Positions 35,462 to 41,418 of a stretch of 64,000 nucleotides of DNA are shown piece after piece (the first letter of the stretch is position 1; the number at the start of each line of letters is the position of its first letter). Under the pieces are notes generated by a model. It worked only from the letters and a program-made list of their open reading frames with translations, made no database searches and was not told where the DNA came from. Source of the DNA: Bradyrhizobium erythrophlei (GTDB lineage Bacteria > Pseudomonadota > Alphaproteobacteria > Rhizobiales > Xanthobacteraceae); assembly GCF_900142985.1 (NCBI RefSeq), contig NZ_LT670849.1, positions 2,852,001-2,916,000 on the forward strand, given 5' to 3'. The translations under genes and the position numbers were made by a program.

Positions 35462-35923
35462 CTAAGGCAGCTTGCGCCGGCCCAGGTAAATATGCAGCGG
35501 GAACAGCAGGGCCAATGAAAATCCGGCAGCGATGTGGATCCAGCTCATCCACGGCCGCAGCGTTTCCGATCCGAGATAATAGAGCCCGAAAGCGGTCCCG
35601 ATCAGGATCGCGTTGAACGTCGCCATCGTCGATCCGGATATGCGATTCTTCCGGCTCCGCCACGCGCGCATCAGGTGGACTGGAATGAGGGCCCCGAGCA
35701 GAAGCAGCGTCACCATTGCCGTGCCGCCATGCGCCATCAGGAGATAGGCGATGCTTTGCTGCCAGATCTCGTCGCTGGAGATATCCTTTTGCCAATCCGC
35801 AACGAGCCAGCCGGCCCCGGTGAGCAGCAGGACCGTAAAGGATGCGTAGATCGCGTATCGGAATGAAGAACTAAGCCGCAAGGTGTACTGCGTTTTGCCA
35901 ATCAGAGGAGATCTGGACCTCAC
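35462..35923 (-). CDS. Four-helix membrane protein with two His pairs (DUF4405/cytochrome b-like)
   Basis: 153 residues from a GTG at 35923 that overlaps the end of apbE by 53 bases; a TTG at 35881 would remove most of the overlap. Four hydrophobic helices at about 22-42, 56-84, 102-118 and 126-147. His65 and His83 lie at the two ends of helix 2, and His130 and His144 at the two ends of helix 4. This is the layout of a bis-haem b cytochrome that carries electrons across the membrane. Position as last gene of the porin-FMN_bind-apbE operon fits a role as electron donor to the flavoprotein. Haem content is inferred. Confidence 0.72.
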   Translation of the reverse strand: MRSRSPLIGKTQYTLRLSSSFRYAIYASFTVLLLTGAGWLVADWQKDISSDEIWQQSIAYLLMAHGGTAMVTLLLLGALIPVHLMRAWRSRKNRISGSTMATFNAILIGTAFGLYYLGSETLRPWMSWIHIAAGFSLALLFPLHIYLGRRKLP

Positions 35924-36764
35924 CGTCCGAGGTGATCAGTAGCGCACTTGCATTGTAAAGCTCAAGCAAACCGGCTGCGTCCGTGCCGGAAATCGCGACG
36001 ATTTTGGTCAAGGCGTCGGCAATCATGCAGGATGGAGCCCGGACGGTCACACCGTCGATCGCATTTGCCGGAGCTTGACCGTCGGGACCGATGATCGCCG
36101 ATCCTGACGTTTCTACGGACCGGAAGGGATCGAACCGGCGCGCGGTAGATGCCAGCGCTTCGTTGGCGAATTCGACACGGCAGACCACGCGGCCGGGATC
36201 GCGGGGATAGCGAACATGAGCCGATTGCACCTGCGCTCCAAAAGCGGCGAGATCACCGCCGGCATTCACGAGACCCCAGGCCAGCGAACCCGATTCGCGA
36301 AGCGCCTCCAGCGCGCGATCGACGGCAAAACCCTTCGCGATTCCACCAAGGTCAATTCTCGCCTGGCGATGCCGAAAGCGGACCATCTGCCCATTGCGCA
36401 GCTCGATCGCGTCCGGCGTGCGCGCCTGCGCATCGATCGGCGCATCGGCGTCGAGCTTCGGCAAGACTCCCATGGACTGAAGGGCCGGCGCGACAGCGAC
36501 GTCAAACACACCGTTCGACCGGTGATGAAGCTCCACGCTTGTCTCAAGCACGCGGAAGGTCCATGCGTGAACCTTGACCGGGCGATCGAAGGCTTCGCGG
36601 TTGAGACGGCTGACGTCGCTTTCGGAATCGTGAAAGCTCATCAGCCGGTGAACGACCGCGACCGCCTCGAACGCCGCATCAACCGCGCGATTGACCTCTG
36701 CCCGATCGGGCCCACTCGCCTCGATCTCCACGAAAGTCCCGAGCAAGGGTCTGGCGCGGCGCAT
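35871..36764 (-). CDS. apbE: FAD:protein FMN transferase
   Basis: 297 residues from the ATG at 36764, one base after the stop of the FMN-binding gene; an ATG at 36785 overlapping that gene is possible. ApbE uses FAD and Mg2+ to join FMN to a Thr of periplasmic target proteins. Motifs: RRARPLLGTFVEIEA at the start, HRLMSFHDSESDVSRLN, IDLGGIAKGFAVDRA (FAD/metal site), GLVNAGGDLAAFG, and a C-terminal metal Asp region (CMIADALTKIVAI). The target is evidently the gene before it. No signal peptide is seen, so either it acts in the cytoplasm before export or the start is misjudged. Confidence 0.92.
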   Translation of the reverse strand: MRRARPLLGTFVEIEASGPDRAEVNRAVDAAFEAVAVVHRLMSFHDSESDVSRLNREAFDRPVKVHAWTFRVLETSVELHHRSNGVFDVAVAPALQSMGVLPKLDADAPIDAQARTPDAIELRNGQMVRFRHRQARIDLGGIAKGFAVDRALEALRESGSLAWGLVNAGGDLAAFGAQVQSAHVRYPRDPGRVVCRVEFANEALASTARRFDPFRSVETSGSAIIGPDGQAPANAIDGVTVRAPSCMIADALTKIVAISGTDAAGLLELYNASALLITSDGEVQISSDWQNAVHLAA

Positions 36765-36765
36765 T

Positions 36766-37239
36766 CTATTTAAGCCGGCTGCCATACGTCGCCAGTATGC
36801 GTTTCACGCCCTCGGTGACATGCGTCGAGGACAGCGTCGCGCCCGCAATATTCCTGATATCGCCATTGATCTTGAGCGGGTTGGCGTTCGTCTTTCCGAC
36901 AAATTGAGCGAGCCAGCTGGGGCTTCTGATCTCGCCGCCGTACGATTCGCGATATTGCAGGATCTCAACGCCGTGCACCGCCCCTGCGGGCGTCAGTGCG
37001 ACGGCGTAGTCGATATAAAGGTGCTTGCCGACGACCCGGTCGAAAATGAAAAAGCCCGCGACACGTCCGCCCGCTTCGGCCTTCCAGATCCTTCCCGACT
37101 GAACTTCGGTGAACTGGGTGGCCGACGGAAACGCCTGCTTCTGCGCTTCCTCGATCGAAAGGTATTGCATCGCATAGGCAGGCGATGCGACCGACGCTAC
37201 CGCAGCCGCCGGCAGCACATATCGAATCCATTCCGTCAT
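36766..37239 (-). CDS. Periplasmic FMN-binding domain protein (ApbE substrate)
   Basis: 157 residues with a Sec signal peptide ending AYA (residue 23). The FMN_bind domain covers about 60-150: GFFIFDRVVGKHLYIDYAVALTP and DIRNIAGATLSST, in which Thr135 is the expected site of covalent FMN. The residue before GAT is Ala where the usual motif has Ser or Thr. The protein is of the single-domain kind found as soluble or membrane-near electron carriers. Order porin - this gene - apbE - four-helix protein, with gaps of 85 and 1 bases, gives a complete flavinylated electron-transfer unit. Its acceptor is not shown; iron is inferred from feoAB next door and the ICE-like operator. Confidence 0.85.
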   Translation of the reverse strand: MTEWIRYVLPAAAVASVASPAYAMQYLSIEEAQKQAFPSATQFTEVQSGRIWKAEAGGRVAGFFIFDRVVGKHLYIDYAVALTPAGAVHGVEILQYRESYGGEIRSPSWLAQFVGKTNANPLKINGDIRNIAGATLSSTHVTEGVKRILATYGSRLK

Positions 37240-37324
37240 GATTCACCCGTTCCCATCATTTCCGTTTGGCAGCCGCGCGGCCTCTCCGACAGCACGGCTT
37301 TCACAAGCGTATTCCTCGCGGGGC

Positions 37325-38962
37325 TCAAAAGAAGAAGCCCACGCCACCGAGGTACGAATCCGAGAGCGCACCGACGAGACTCTTGTCGATCACCCTTTGA
37401 TACTCGGCCTTCAGCACGATTTTTGGCGACGGGAAGACCGCAACGCCTGCGGTATGGAATTGGCGCTGGCCGGCGCCCGTCGGCGAGTTGATATCCGTTC
37501 CGGCAAACCCGCCTGTCTGGAGATTTTCGTAAGTGTAGTTATAGAACGGAACCGCTTCCCACTCGCTCCGCAGGATGGTGCCGAGCGGGATGTGATAGGC
37601 GATCTCGCCCGAATAGCCGAACATCGCTTTTCCAACATTGTTGGTTGGATCGCTGTCGTTGTTGGCCCGCAGGTTTGCAGGATTGCCGAATTCGACGCGG
37701 ACGTATTCGCCGCGCAATTCGAGGCCGGTATTGGGTACACGATAGCGGAATTCGGCATCGAACATGGCAAGGCTGGACTTGCCCAGGAAGTTGCCAAGAT
37801 CGTCATGGGCGCCACGTGGTGTCGTATTGGGCGAGTAATAGGCGCTGATGCTGCCTCCGAACCCCGGAAGGAATGTTGGGGTGACGTCGAGCCGGCCGGA
37901 CACCGCGAGCGTATTGGAGAGTTGGTCAAAACCGCCGAGTGGCGGGTTTGAGAATGCGAGCGCGTTGGCCCCGTCGATGCCGGGGAAATACGGCGTACCG
38001 GGCAGCGGCACTGTCTTGGCGTCCGTGCGATTGGCAAACGAATCGCCAAAGTCCTCGTTGGTGGCGCTGAGCATGATCTGGTACCTCAAATCCTCGCTGA
38101 TCGTGCCGTACACGCTGGTGCCGGGCACCTTCCAGGTCGACGGGATGATGCTGTTGTAGAGCTCGGGCCGGTTGACGCTGTAGAACTGCGTCGGTTCATG
38201 ATGCTGGTTGATATATCCGATCGGCACCAGATCGATGCCCGGCGCGCGCCAGTTGAACTGATCGATGATCTTGAAATCAATCCAAAGCTGCTCGATCTCG
38301 GCGGTGCCATGCAGCTTGTCGTCGTTGTCGAAGCCTGAGCCGGCATGCTCGAATTCGATTTCGGCATTGAAGATAATGTTGTCGGTGATCGCATAGGTCG
38401 GCAACAGCACCATGCGCGCGGTATCGAAGCCACTCTGCCACTGACCATTGGCGGCAGGATTTTGCATCGACCCGAATTTGACTTCGCCGTAAGCCCCGAT
38501 GCTCAGGCCAGCCACCGGCGACGGAGCGACGCCCAGGATCGGCAGGTCGGACGGCGGGGTGGAGAGGTCGAGCGTCTTGGGTTTGGACGACGGTTTGCCT
38601 TTCGGATCTTGCGGCAGCTCCGGTGCGGCGGCAACTTTGGCGCCTTTGTCGGTCTCGGGGGCTGGCGTTTTTTTCTGCGCCTTTTCGGAGCCGGCAGTTC
38701 GCTTCTTGTCGGCAGGTGCAGCCTCTTGTCCGGCGGCATCGGCAACCCGCTTTTGCCTAAGCTCGGCTTCGAGCGACTGGATACGCTTCTCCATCGCCTC
38801 CATTTTCTTCAGTACGGCATCACTGGCCTCACCCTCCGCTGACCAAGCGCTGCCGGAGCCAAGGAGAGAGATCGCGGTTGCTGCAAGCAGCATTCCCCGC
38901 CTCGAGCGACCAAACCAGGAAGAGAACGATGAAGAGAAGTGCAGAGAATGACACCGCGACAT
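37325..38962 (-). CDS. Outer-membrane porin with N-terminal coiled coil
   Basis: 545 residues; ATG at 38962 with GGGGG upstream (an ATG at 38893 would also leave a signal peptide). Signal region about 24-41 (MLLAATAISLLGSG). Residues 48-75 form a coiled coil (LKKMEAMEKRIQSLEAELRQ), followed by a Lys/Ala/Pro linker and from about 150 a barrel of alternating strands (LSIGAYGEVKFGS, FNAEIEFEHAGSG, VSGRLDVTP, FDAEFRYRVPNTGLELRGEYVRVEF) ending in Phe, as outer-membrane barrels do. The plan resembles LbtU-type siderophore porins, a TonB-independent route, but I cannot confirm that. It heads the FMN_bind/apbE operon behind an ICE-like site. Confidence 0.8.
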   Translation of the reverse strand: MSRCHSLHFSSSFSSWFGRSRRGMLLAATAISLLGSGSAWSAEGEASDAVLKKMEAMEKRIQSLEAELRQKRVADAAGQEAAPADKKRTAGSEKAQKKTPAPETDKGAKVAAAPELPQDPKGKPSSKPKTLDLSTPPSDLPILGVAPSPVAGLSIGAYGEVKFGSMQNPAANGQWQSGFDTARMVLLPTYAITDNIIFNAEIEFEHAGSGFDNDDKLHGTAEIEQLWIDFKIIDQFNWRAPGIDLVPIGYINQHHEPTQFYSVNRPELYNSIIPSTWKVPGTSVYGTISEDLRYQIMLSATNEDFGDSFANRTDAKTVPLPGTPYFPGIDGANALAFSNPPLGGFDQLSNTLAVSGRLDVTPTFLPGFGGSISAYYSPNTTPRGAHDDLGNFLGKSSLAMFDAEFRYRVPNTGLELRGEYVRVEFGNPANLRANNDSDPTNNVGKAMFGYSGEIAYHIPLGTILRSEWEAVPFYNYTYENLQTGGFAGTDINSPTGAGQRQFHTAGVAVFPSPKIVLKAEYQRVIDKSLVGALSDSYLGGVGFFF

Positions 38963-39081
38963 GAAGCCCCCAATCCGCGGAGATCAGGAACTCCGCGATT
39001 TCGTGGGGCCTTAGTAATCATTGCAACCTATTTCTGGGATTCGAAAATGGAACAGCGCAGCTGGAATCGCTCTACTTTAGA

Positions 39082-39098
39082 ATTAGAACAAAACTAAA
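39082..39098 (-). promoter_or_regulatory. ICE-like (Irr-box-like) operator before the porin operon
   Basis: ATTAGAACAAAACTAAA matches 11 of 14 fixed positions of TTTAGAA-N3-TTCTAAA. The core is identical over 17 bases to the site at 2407-2423. A further TTTAGAA half-site lies directly beside it (39077-39083). It is 120 bases before the porin start and 70 bases past the feoB stop, so it most likely controls the porin operon separately from feoAB. Confidence 0.55.
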
Positions 39099-39167
39099 TC
39101 TCCGGAAGGCCTCAAGATGACCGTTTGACGACGAAACTCGACCTCATCGGCGCGCCACTTGATTGCG

Positions 39168-41039
39168 CTAGCCGGCGCCGAAGGCGACCGCGACGTTGTA
39201 GGTGACGAGGCTCGCCGCATAGGCCAGCACGAACATATAGAGGAACGTCACCACCATCCATTTCGTGCCGCCGGTCTCGCGCCGGATTACTGCCAGCGTC
39301 GAGGCGCATTGCGGGGCGAAGATGTACCAGGCAAGCAGCGACAGCGCCGTCGCCAGGCTCCATTTGGTGGCCAGCACCTGCCCGATCTGATCCGCAGCCT
39401 CTTTGCCGCCCTCGATGGCGTAGACCGTGCCGAGCGCAGCGACCGCCACTTCGCGCGCGGCCATGCCAGGAATCAGCGCCACCACGATTTGCCAGTTGAA
39501 GCCAAGCGGCGCAAACAGCGGCGCCAGCGCATGTCCGATCATTGCGGCCAGGCTGTAGTTGATGGCGGGCCCTTCGGCGCCGGCGGGCGGCTGCGGAAAC
39601 GACGCCAGGAACCAGATCAGCACCATCATCGAGAAGATTGTGGTGCCGGCGCGCACCAAAAACATCTTCGCTCGCGTGTAGATGCCGATCGCGATGCTCT
39701 TCAGCCGCGGCAATTTATAGTCCGGCAACTCCAGCATGAACGGCGCGGGCGCATAGTCACGCAGCATGAAAAACTTGATCAGGAACGAGACGAGCAAGGC
39801 ACTGCCGATGCCGGCCGCATAGAGGCCGAACATCACGAGCCCCCTGAGGTTGATCCAGCCCCAGACCTGCTGGTCCGGAATGAACGCCGAGATAATCAGG
39901 GTGTAGACCGGGATTCGCGCCGAACAGGTCATCAGCGGCGCGATCAGGATCGTGGTCAGCCGGTCGCGACGGTTGTCGATGACACGCGTCGCCATGATGC
40001 CGGGAATCGCGCAGGCAAAGCTCGATAGCAGGGGAATGAAGGCGCGGCCGTGCAGGCCCGCACCACCCATGATGCGGTCCATCAGAAACGCCGCACGCGC
40101 CATGTAGCCAAAGTCTTCGAGCAGCAGGATGAACAGGAATATGATGATGATCTGCGGCAGGAACACGATGACGCTGCCGACGCCGGAGATCGCGCCGTTT
40201 TGCAGGAAACTCTGCAACAGCCCTGCCGGCAGCGTATCGTGCACCAGCTGGCCGAGCGCGGAAAAACCGTCCGACAGAAGCTCCATCAGCGGCTGCGCCC
40301 AGGCGAACACCGCCTGGAACATCACGAACAGCACGAGGCCAAGGATGAGAAGTCCAGCGACCGGGTGCAGCACCACGGCGTCGATCCGGCCCGACCAGGT
40401 GTCGGGTCTGGCTGGAAGACTGACGGTCTCGCCGATAATCCGGTCGGCCTCGCGCTGGGTGGCGCGCAAATCAGCGACCGAAAGCGGCTTCCAGAGATTT
40501 TCGCGGACCGCCGTCTCCGACTGCGCCGCGATTTCATCGGTCTTGCGCAATAGCTCGGCGATGCCGCTTTTGCGTACCGCAATCGACGTCACTACCGGAA
40601 CGCCCAACATTTCCGACATGCGCGCGGCATCGACGGTGACGCCGCGCCGCGTCGCGATATCGAACATGTTCAGCACCAGCATCAACGGCCGGCCGGTCCG
40701 CTTCAGTTCGAGCAGAAGACGGATGGTCAGCCGCAGGTTGGTGGAATCCGCCACGCACAGGACGAGATCCGGGGGCTTTTCGCCGGCGGCGCGGCCCAGC
40801 ACGAAATCCCGGGTGATTTCCTCATCGGGGCTGCGGCCGCGCAACGAATAGGTGCCGGGCAAATCGACGATCGAGGCCTGCCGCCCCAGCGGGGTGACGA
40901 AGAAGCCTTCCTTGCGCTCGACGGTGACGCCGGGATAATTCGCGACCTTTTGGCGGCTGCCCGTCAGCGCGTTGAACAGCGACGTCTTGCCGCTGTTGGG
41001 CGTCCCCACCAAAGCGAGATGCATTAACGGAGCTTCCAT
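39168..41039 (-). CDS. feoB: Ferrous iron transporter FeoB
   Basis: 623 residues from the ATG at 41039 (a GTG at 41057 is an alternative). The N-terminal GTPase domain shows G1 GTPNSGKTS, the G2 Thr in YPGVTVERKEG, G3 DLPGTYSL and G4 NMFD. The membrane part has the two Gate motifs in core helices, including GFFIPLLSSFACAIPGI-like LLSSFACAIPG and MTCSARIPVY with its conserved Cys, which line the Fe(II) path. Length is near the short end for FeoB. feoA precedes it by 21 bases, and no feoC is present. It imports Fe(II) across the inner membrane. Confidence 0.95.
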   Translation of the reverse strand: MEAPLMHLALVGTPNSGKTSLFNALTGSRQKVANYPGVTVERKEGFFVTPLGRQASIVDLPGTYSLRGRSPDEEITRDFVLGRAAGEKPPDLVLCVADSTNLRLTIRLLLELKRTGRPLMLVLNMFDIATRRGVTVDAARMSEMLGVPVVTSIAVRKSGIAELLRKTDEIAAQSETAVRENLWKPLSVADLRATQREADRIIGETVSLPARPDTWSGRIDAVVLHPVAGLLILGLVLFVMFQAVFAWAQPLMELLSDGFSALGQLVHDTLPAGLLQSFLQNGAISGVGSVIVFLPQIIIIFLFILLLEDFGYMARAAFLMDRIMGGAGLHGRAFIPLLSSFACAIPGIMATRVIDNRRDRLTTILIAPLMTCSARIPVYTLIISAFIPDQQVWGWINLRGLVMFGLYAAGIGSALLVSFLIKFFMLRDYAPAPFMLELPDYKLPRLKSIAIGIYTRAKMFLVRAGTTIFSMMVLIWFLASFPQPPAGAEGPAINYSLAAMIGHALAPLFAPLGFNWQIVVALIPGMAAREVAVAALGTVYAIEGGKEAADQIGQVLATKWSLATALSLLAWYIFAPQCASTLAVIRRETGGTKWMVVTFLYMFVLAYAASLVTYNVAVAFGAG

Positions 41040-41060
41040 GACGCCGCACCAGTCCACCGG

Positions 41061-41342
41061 TCAGACGACTACGACGGCCATCGCCTCGCGTCGGCGCACC
41101 GCGACCGTCACGTTCTCGACGCGAACGGCAATCGGATCACGCCCGATAATGCCCTCGTGGAGCACCTCGACCCTGGCTCCCTCGACGAAGCCGAGCTCGA
41201 TGAGACGGCTTTCCAGTTCGATCGCGGGAAGCGAGGAGTTCACCTCAGTGGCATCAAGATGCTGGATCACACCGGAATAGCCGCGCTTGGCGAGGCCAAG
41301 CCGCATCTCGGGTGGCGTACTGCTTTGATCGATGGCGGTCAT
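41061..41342 (-). CDS. feoA: Ferrous iron transport protein FeoA
   Basis: 93 residues from the ATG at 41342 (a TTG at 41357 is possible). SH3-like FeoA domain: RLIELGFVEGARVEVLHEG and DPIAVRVENVTVAVRRREA are the family strands. The N-terminal 25 residues add a leader with AKRGYSG. FeoA binds FeoB in the cytoplasm and is needed for its activity. It is the first gene of feoAB, with an ICE-like site 60 bases upstream. Confidence 0.92.
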   Translation of the reverse strand: MTAIDQSSTPPEMRLGLAKRGYSGVIQHLDATEVNSSLPAIELESRLIELGFVEGARVEVLHEGIIGRDPIAVRVENVTVAVRRREAMAVVVV

Positions 41343-41401
41343 GGTCTGTATTTTCAACCGCTGACGCCGAGGTCAAGCTTGGCGAGCTAAAACGCATTGA
41401 T

Positions 41402-41418
41402 CTTAGAGCGATTTTAAA
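41402..41418 (-). promoter_or_regulatory. ICE-like operator before feoAB
   Basis: On the minus strand the sequence is TTTAAAATCGCTCTAAG, matching 11 of 14 fixed positions of TTTAGAA-N3-TTCTAAA. It is centred about 68 bases before the feoA ATG, a usual distance for an operator over the promoter. Control by Irr (or another Fur-family protein) is inferred. Confidence 0.5.

Follow-up and report, generated by a model that had tools for sequence, protein, structure and literature searches.

According to the account of iron uptake in B. japonicum given in PMC10760861, FeoAB takes up iron supplied as inorganic Fe(III) only after an unknown reductase has reduced it. In the soil bacterium Bradyrhizobium erythrophlei, feoA and feoB lie beside four genes that resemble the parts of a periplasmic redox chain, and the question raised by this locus is whether those four genes, referred to below as the module, may constitute such a reductase. 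The window analysed is a stretch of 64,000 nucleotides, and the genome from which it comes is a single contig of 7.5 Mb.

Gene order and component proteins

The list of open reading frames gives the order feoA, feoB, porin-like gene, FMN_bind, ApbE and four-helix gene on the minus strand. A previous sequence-only reading had described six co-directional genes here, and all six ORFs are present on the minus strand at the place claimed. The features are:

41402..41418: ICE-like (Irr box) palindrome 5' of feoA, 3 mismatches
41061..41357, minus strand: feoA (Pfam PF04023 FeoA, 43.5 bits, cut-off 23)
39168..41057, minus strand: feoB, ferrous iron permease (PF02421, PF07670 and PF07664; FeoB_N, Gate and FeoB_C)
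39082..39098: ICE-like palindrome 5' of the four-gene operon, before the porin-like gene, 3 mismatches
37325..38962, minus strand: porin-like outer-membrane protein, 545 aa, read by eye
36766..37239, minus strand: exported FMN_bind protein, 157 aa (PF04205, 34.2 bits, cut-off 22)
35871..36785, minus strand: ApbE-family protein, 304 aa (PF02424, 140.3 bits, cut-off 25.6)
35462..35881 (longest ORF to 35923), minus strand: four-helix membrane protein, 139 aa from a TTG start, candidate di-haem b cytochrome

The FeoAB transporter is represented by a FeoA domain and a full FeoB (GTPase, Gate and FeoB_C), the latter also scoring 479.4 bits against TIGR00437 (cut-off 315.65). A gap of 205 bp separates feoB from the porin-like gene. 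Further along, the ApbE ORF overlaps the FMN_bind ORF and the four-helix ORF overlaps the ApbE ORF, as they would in a single operon.

The porin-like protein is so called because it has a leader, an N-terminal coiled coil and a terminal Phe, all read by eye. It scores above cut-off in no Pfam family and has no meaningful match among PDB sequences. An AlphaFold2 prediction (12 sequences tried) is unusable, with a mean pLDDT of 32, and does not confirm a porin. The FMN_bind protein has the combination that marks flavinylated systems, namely a leader of the export type, read by eye, and a flavinylation motif, DIRNIAGATLSST. Specifically, GATLS is present in all 27 FMN_bind sequences aligned, that of the window included, and the longer pattern DI[RKT]NI[AS]GATLS is likewise kept in all 27. 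The FMN_bind profile matches RnfG (7zc6_G) with E 1.4e-5.

The four-helix protein has the histidines that had been named in its 153-residue ORF, H65, H83, H130 and H144. Among the matches listed, many homologues have a length of 139 aa and a start that coincides with TTG 35881, which suggests that the protein starts there and has 139 residues, the histidines then being H51, H69, H116 and H130. None of the four varies in 16 sequences from three groups of loci (24–58% identical to the first) or in 81 sequences taken from the protein database and the window. No Pfam family scores above its cut-off (PF01292 reaches 16.5 bits against a cut-off of 30.1, and the rest is noise), and the protein matches none of the five known classes of membrane carrier in Pfam. 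In an AlphaFold2 model with a mean pLDDT of 91.8, the pair H51 and H69 falls on helix 2 and the stretch that continues it, and the pair H116 and H130 on the last helix. Paired histidines hold two bis-His haems in cytochrome b, and the placement of the pairs in the model suits two bis-His b haems, making the protein a candidate di-haem cytochrome. Comparison of the four-helix profile with PDB sequences gave one chance match (E 0.77), and a Foldseek search with the model gave nothing at E below 0.001. The closest solved folds by VIA-align include FdnI, b6f, HyaC and superoxide oxidase, with designed bundles scoring equally; because cytochromes are mixed with generic bundles, the fold is no proof of haem.

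The ApbE protein had been taken to act outside the cytoplasm, and its features do not bear this out. It begins at the domain itself, and no signal peptide is visible in any of the 10 module ApbEs aligned. The column of the catalytic His, which is His in the solved structures 6nxi, 1vrm, 4xdt and 4ifu, holds Ala in 7 ApbEs of groups 1 and 2 (defined below), and the segment that carries it is missing in 3 ApbEs of group 3. The ADALTK motif still has its invariant Asp. The module ApbE is thus not, by its sequence, an exported ApbE with a conserved catalytic His, and these features weaken the simple version of the reductase model set out below.

The module ApbE may not be the enzyme that flavinylates the exported FMN_bind protein, having another role or acting before export, with the work done by a second ApbE or by none. 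We regard this as somewhat unlikely; it is compatible with the explanation preferred below or with its rivals. In addition to the lack of a visible signal peptide and the altered or missing catalytic segment, it can draw on a second ApbE in this genome (L090:6083-6997, genome positions 3789083-3789997), which has an HILDPRSG motif, though likewise no obvious leader. On the other hand, ApbE and FMN_bind genes stand together in 46 of 47 loci, a point in favour of a shared role, and PMC12052999 reports both a His257-to-Gly ApbE mutant with lowered rather than abolished activity and the existence of cytosolic ApbEs. The second ApbE adjoins an exported-looking protein of 191 aa; a weak ICE-like match nearby falls inside the 191-aa ORF upstream and is probably due to chance.

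Distribution of the module and position of feoAB

A search for the FMN_bind protein (E up to 1e-5) in 242 genomes of the genus Bradyrhizobium found it in 46 and gave no match in the other 196; the module therefore cannot be a genus-wide reductase. In a family-level set it is present in 4 of 149 genomes, two of which are this genome and another Bradyrhizobium. The four-helix alignment identified 2 of 297 order-level genomes, both of the genus Bradyrhizobium, in a search that scored at most 12 candidates per genome and may have missed some. A named collection contributed 21 FMN_bind loci, each of the near kind that is called group 1 below.

The neighbourhoods of 47 loci, read by tblastn, comprise group 1 (n=26), group 2 (n=8) and group 3 (n=13). 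The porin-like, FMN_bind, ApbE and four-helix genes occur together in all 26 loci of group 1, and nine further group-1 loci, out of nine, are also whole; the four genes are thus a real co-inherited unit, as had been proposed. In group 2, the FMN_bind, ApbE and four-helix genes stand behind a multicopper oxidase gene and type II secretion genes (8/8), the latter identified by eye. In group 3, a DUF6662 protein is encoded in 13/13 loci, with ApbE and the four-helix gene in 12/13. The FMN_bind–ApbE–four-helix cassette is thus constant, and its outer partner differs among lineages. In 16 of the 26 group-1 loci, the place 5' of the porin-like gene that feoAB takes here is occupied by genes for a small PepSY_2 protein and a cytochrome b561, and the same arrangement is found in 9/9 group-1 loci read later (L037-L051, L054, L104-L109 and L111-L113 in all); feoB is absent from these loci. 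The assignments of multicopper oxidase, DUF6662, b561 and PepSY_2 are Pfam-supported on one representative each.

FeoB itself is present in 198/242 Bradyrhizobium genomes (E up to 1e-100). It adjoins the module in 3 of the 46 FMN_bind-positive genomes, namely this one, G311 and G380, the rest having been checked in neighbourhood sequence, which for G280 can be followed no further than about 620 bases past the porin match. A fourth adjacent locus, L032, comes from a named metagenome-assembled genome outside the 46. In G198, about 6 kb past feoB on its contig was read and holds no module. At 3/46, the six-gene set is ruled out as a conserved unit, and the sequence-only reading, which had described a complete six-gene unit, fails on this point. 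It had also stated that the absence of any conserved association with feoAB would count against it; some association exists, at a frequency that comes near to that outcome.

In this genome, feoAB does not lie at its usual place. Seven ordinary feoAB loci of other genomes share 10–36 ORFs per pair, spurious ORFs and feoAB included, compared with 4–6 ORFs between ordinary and relocated loci. The ordinary locus is surrounded by genes read as sspB and fumC, and none of the seven has a match to the other neighbours in the window. In this genome, sspB-fumC and the small ORF that follows are still there, but feoAB is not. From the synteny of the ordinary loci and the feoAB-less sspB-fumC region, feoAB has left its usual place after sspB-fumC and moved to the module in this and a few other strains.

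In a tree of FMN_bind and ApbE, the window, G311 and the metagenome-assembled genome form a clade (support 0.99), and G380 groups with two others (0.96). In the FeoB tree, at modest support, G380 does not fall together with the three other copies that adjoin the module. One or two moves of feoAB are both possible. In G380, a group-3 FMN_bind gene and a DUF6662-type gene separate feoB from the group-1 module and run the opposite way (L065:5761-7270), and two flavin gene sets thus adjoin a single feoAB.

The low frequency of adjacency, 3 genomes in 46, and the fact that three of the four adjacent loci belong to one clade would fit an accidental arrangement, in which the adjacency and shared direction of feoAB and the module mean nothing and the module alone is a unit, unrelated to iron uptake. 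We consider this distinctly improbable. It is opposed by the second adjacency, in G380, with its extra FMN_bind and DUF6662 pair in between, and by the ICE-like sites that precede the module where feoAB is absent, described next.

ICE-like sites

An ICE consensus, TTTAGAANNNTTCTAAA, was scanned at up to 3 mismatches. The window has two matches, at 39082-39098 and 41402-41418, and the expectation of an ICE-like site before each gene group is borne out: one precedes the porin-like gene and the other feoA. By number they are unremarkable, with a mean of 0.38 in shuffled windows and two reached in 8/100 shuffles. Over the whole genome, the backward control gives more matches than the loose pattern itself (110 vs 64 per strand); since the pattern is not enriched, single sites prove nothing. 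The consensus itself could be checked against the genome, in which the two perfect sites lie directly before an mbfA-like (Rubrerythrin-VIT1) gene and a ferritin-family (Bfr) gene; both are known Irr targets, the mbfA and bacterioferritin genes being described in PMC4902296 as very tight ones.

In the relatives, an ICE-like site lies within 4 kb upstream of FMN_bind in 36 of 47 loci, comprising 19/26 of group 1, 7/8 of group 2 and 10/13 of group 3. The tally covers L032-L078 (L079, which duplicates L052, was left out) and scores incomplete contigs, L035 among them, as misses; its loci share descent and are not independent events. The 11 loci with no site in the 4-kb zone count against the reading of the module preferred below. 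In total there are 50 matches in 181 kb of upstream sequence vs 3 in 698 kb elsewhere, and two of these 3 precede feoA, in L032 and L033. Permuted palindromes (300 draws, 120 distinct) hit a mean of 1.2 of the 47 loci, with a maximum of 11, the best-scoring ones resembling the ICE motif. Loci that lack feoAB also have sites before the module. Twelve loci read later stand outside the tally, L110 being a feoAB contig only; 8 of 9 later main-group loci have an ICE-like site before the PepSY_2 gene, and sites lie 5' of the porin-like gene in L098 and L099. At the ordinary feoAB loci, a site lies directly before feoA in 5/7.

From their position and their conservation in relatives, the two sites of the window are therefore more than chance matches. 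The module has what marks a member of the Irr regulon at the sequence level, an ICE palindrome at the promoter that is conserved in relatives, and the best reading of the porin-like, FMN_bind, ApbE and four-helix genes is a putative Irr-controlled redox module. The link to iron that had been proposed is strengthened by the ICE-like sites before the module in three lineages and by the relocation of feoAB to its side.

Another site in this genome (L082:2364-2396, genome positions 1598864-1598896) has one mismatch and a weaker site adjoining it. It lies directly before genes for a 279-aa protein with no Pfam match and a periplasmic substrate-binding-like protein, and is a possible further Irr target. 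In group 2 (L055-L062), ICE-like sites occur near the start of the multicopper oxidase of about 765 aa in 7/8 loci and shortly before FMN_bind in 6/8. A multicopper oxidase regulated by iron and equipped with its own secretion genes would deserve separate study.

Possible function and relation to known systems

We propose, with a confidence that is evenly balanced, that the module is an Irr-controlled periplasmic Fe(III)-reducing chain that feeds FeoAB, and so a plausible ferric reductase. Under iron limitation, electrons from quinol would pass to the two haems of the four-helix protein and from these to FMN held covalently on the periplasmic FMN_bind protein. The reduced FMN would then act on Fe(III) or on ferric chelates admitted through the outer-membrane partner, and FeoAB would import the resulting Fe(II). 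In other strains, the module would work, if at all, with FeoAB encoded elsewhere.

An ICE site is evidence of regulation and not of substrate. The module may be iron-regulated while its acceptor is not iron, feoAB lying nearby through shared Irr control alone; the reaction could then be linked to copper or oxygen, or serve redox repair of the outer membrane under iron limitation. We think this unlikely. It accords with the outer partners varying by lineage (porin-like protein, multicopper oxidase with type II secretion, DUF6662) and with PepSY_2 and cytochrome b561, rather than feoAB, upstream of most group-1 loci; in group 2, the pairing with a multicopper oxidase could mean oxidation instead of reduction. 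It is countered by the move of feoAB from its ordinary locus to exactly the side of the module, which may have happened twice given the separate position of G380 in the FeoB tree (modest support).

There is also a slim chance that the module is an Irr-controlled, flavin-based electron conduit at the outer membrane of diderm bacteria. The di-haem four-helix protein would pass quinol electrons to the small covalent flavoprotein, which would dock at or within an exchangeable outer partner (a porin, a DUF6662 protein or a secreted multicopper oxidase), and iron would be reduced at or beyond the cell surface for assimilation. If true, this conduit would be a flavin counterpart of the multihaem porin-cytochrome conduits.

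The preferred reading, a periplasmic ferric reductase, has counterparts among known systems. FrcB of B. japonicum is a membrane di-haem ferric reductase under Irr, which the four-helix protein would resemble if it is indeed a di-haem cytochrome under Irr control. FsrB, the periplasmic ferric siderophore reductase of B. japonicum, acts before FeoAB (PMC10760861) and reduces iron in the periplasm for FeoAB, as proposed for the module. FsrB is a COG3182 protein assigned to PepSY_TM (PMC13038864), whereas this genome has no PepSY_TM match at E 0.001; 220/242 genomes have one. All three sampled genomes with relocated feoAB (this one, G311 and G380, the last by elimination) have no detectable PepSY_TM, and this absence is a lead; the module may fill the role of the PepSY_TM ferric reductases missing there. 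A general link between presence of the module and loss of PepSY_TM was rejected (5/46 vs 17/196 lacking it, Fisher p 0.58). Among nine early-branching group-1 genomes, PepSY_TM is weak (E above 1e-40) or absent in 8/9 vs 25/233 (p 4e-7), a class chosen post hoc after the data had been seen and confounded by descent.

That flavinylated systems may serve to reduce iron ahead of its uptake has been suggested before (Meheust et al. 2021, PMC8238504). The clusters described there are like the module in having FMN_bind, ApbE and a membrane electron carrier near an iron transporter. The carriers that the paper describes are NapH-, MsrQ-, PepSY-, DsbD- or NQR/RNF-like, and the transporters VIT1, P19/FTR1 and TonB receptors; the module differs in its small four-helix protein, which has none of those Pfam matches, in its outer-membrane partner and in FeoAB. 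DUF4405/FezC proteins (PMC10979944) are similar to the four-helix protein in being small membrane proteins with four conserved histidines, some of them encoded beside apbE, and purified examples bind haem b. They are described there as having six helices, compared with four here, and the four-helix protein has no DUF4405 Pfam match. Among the papers listed by searches of open-licence PMC literature, we recognised none on this gene set with its four-helix protein and FeoAB under ICE control.

With the module, a small cytochrome-like family that has no entry in Pfam joins the membrane carriers known to accompany flavinylated proteins. It is a compact iron-controlled gene set in strains with no detected protein of the FsrB family (PepSY_TM), and in those strains the source of Fe(II) for FeoAB, the reductase that PMC10760861 states to be unknown in B. 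japonicum, becomes directly testable.
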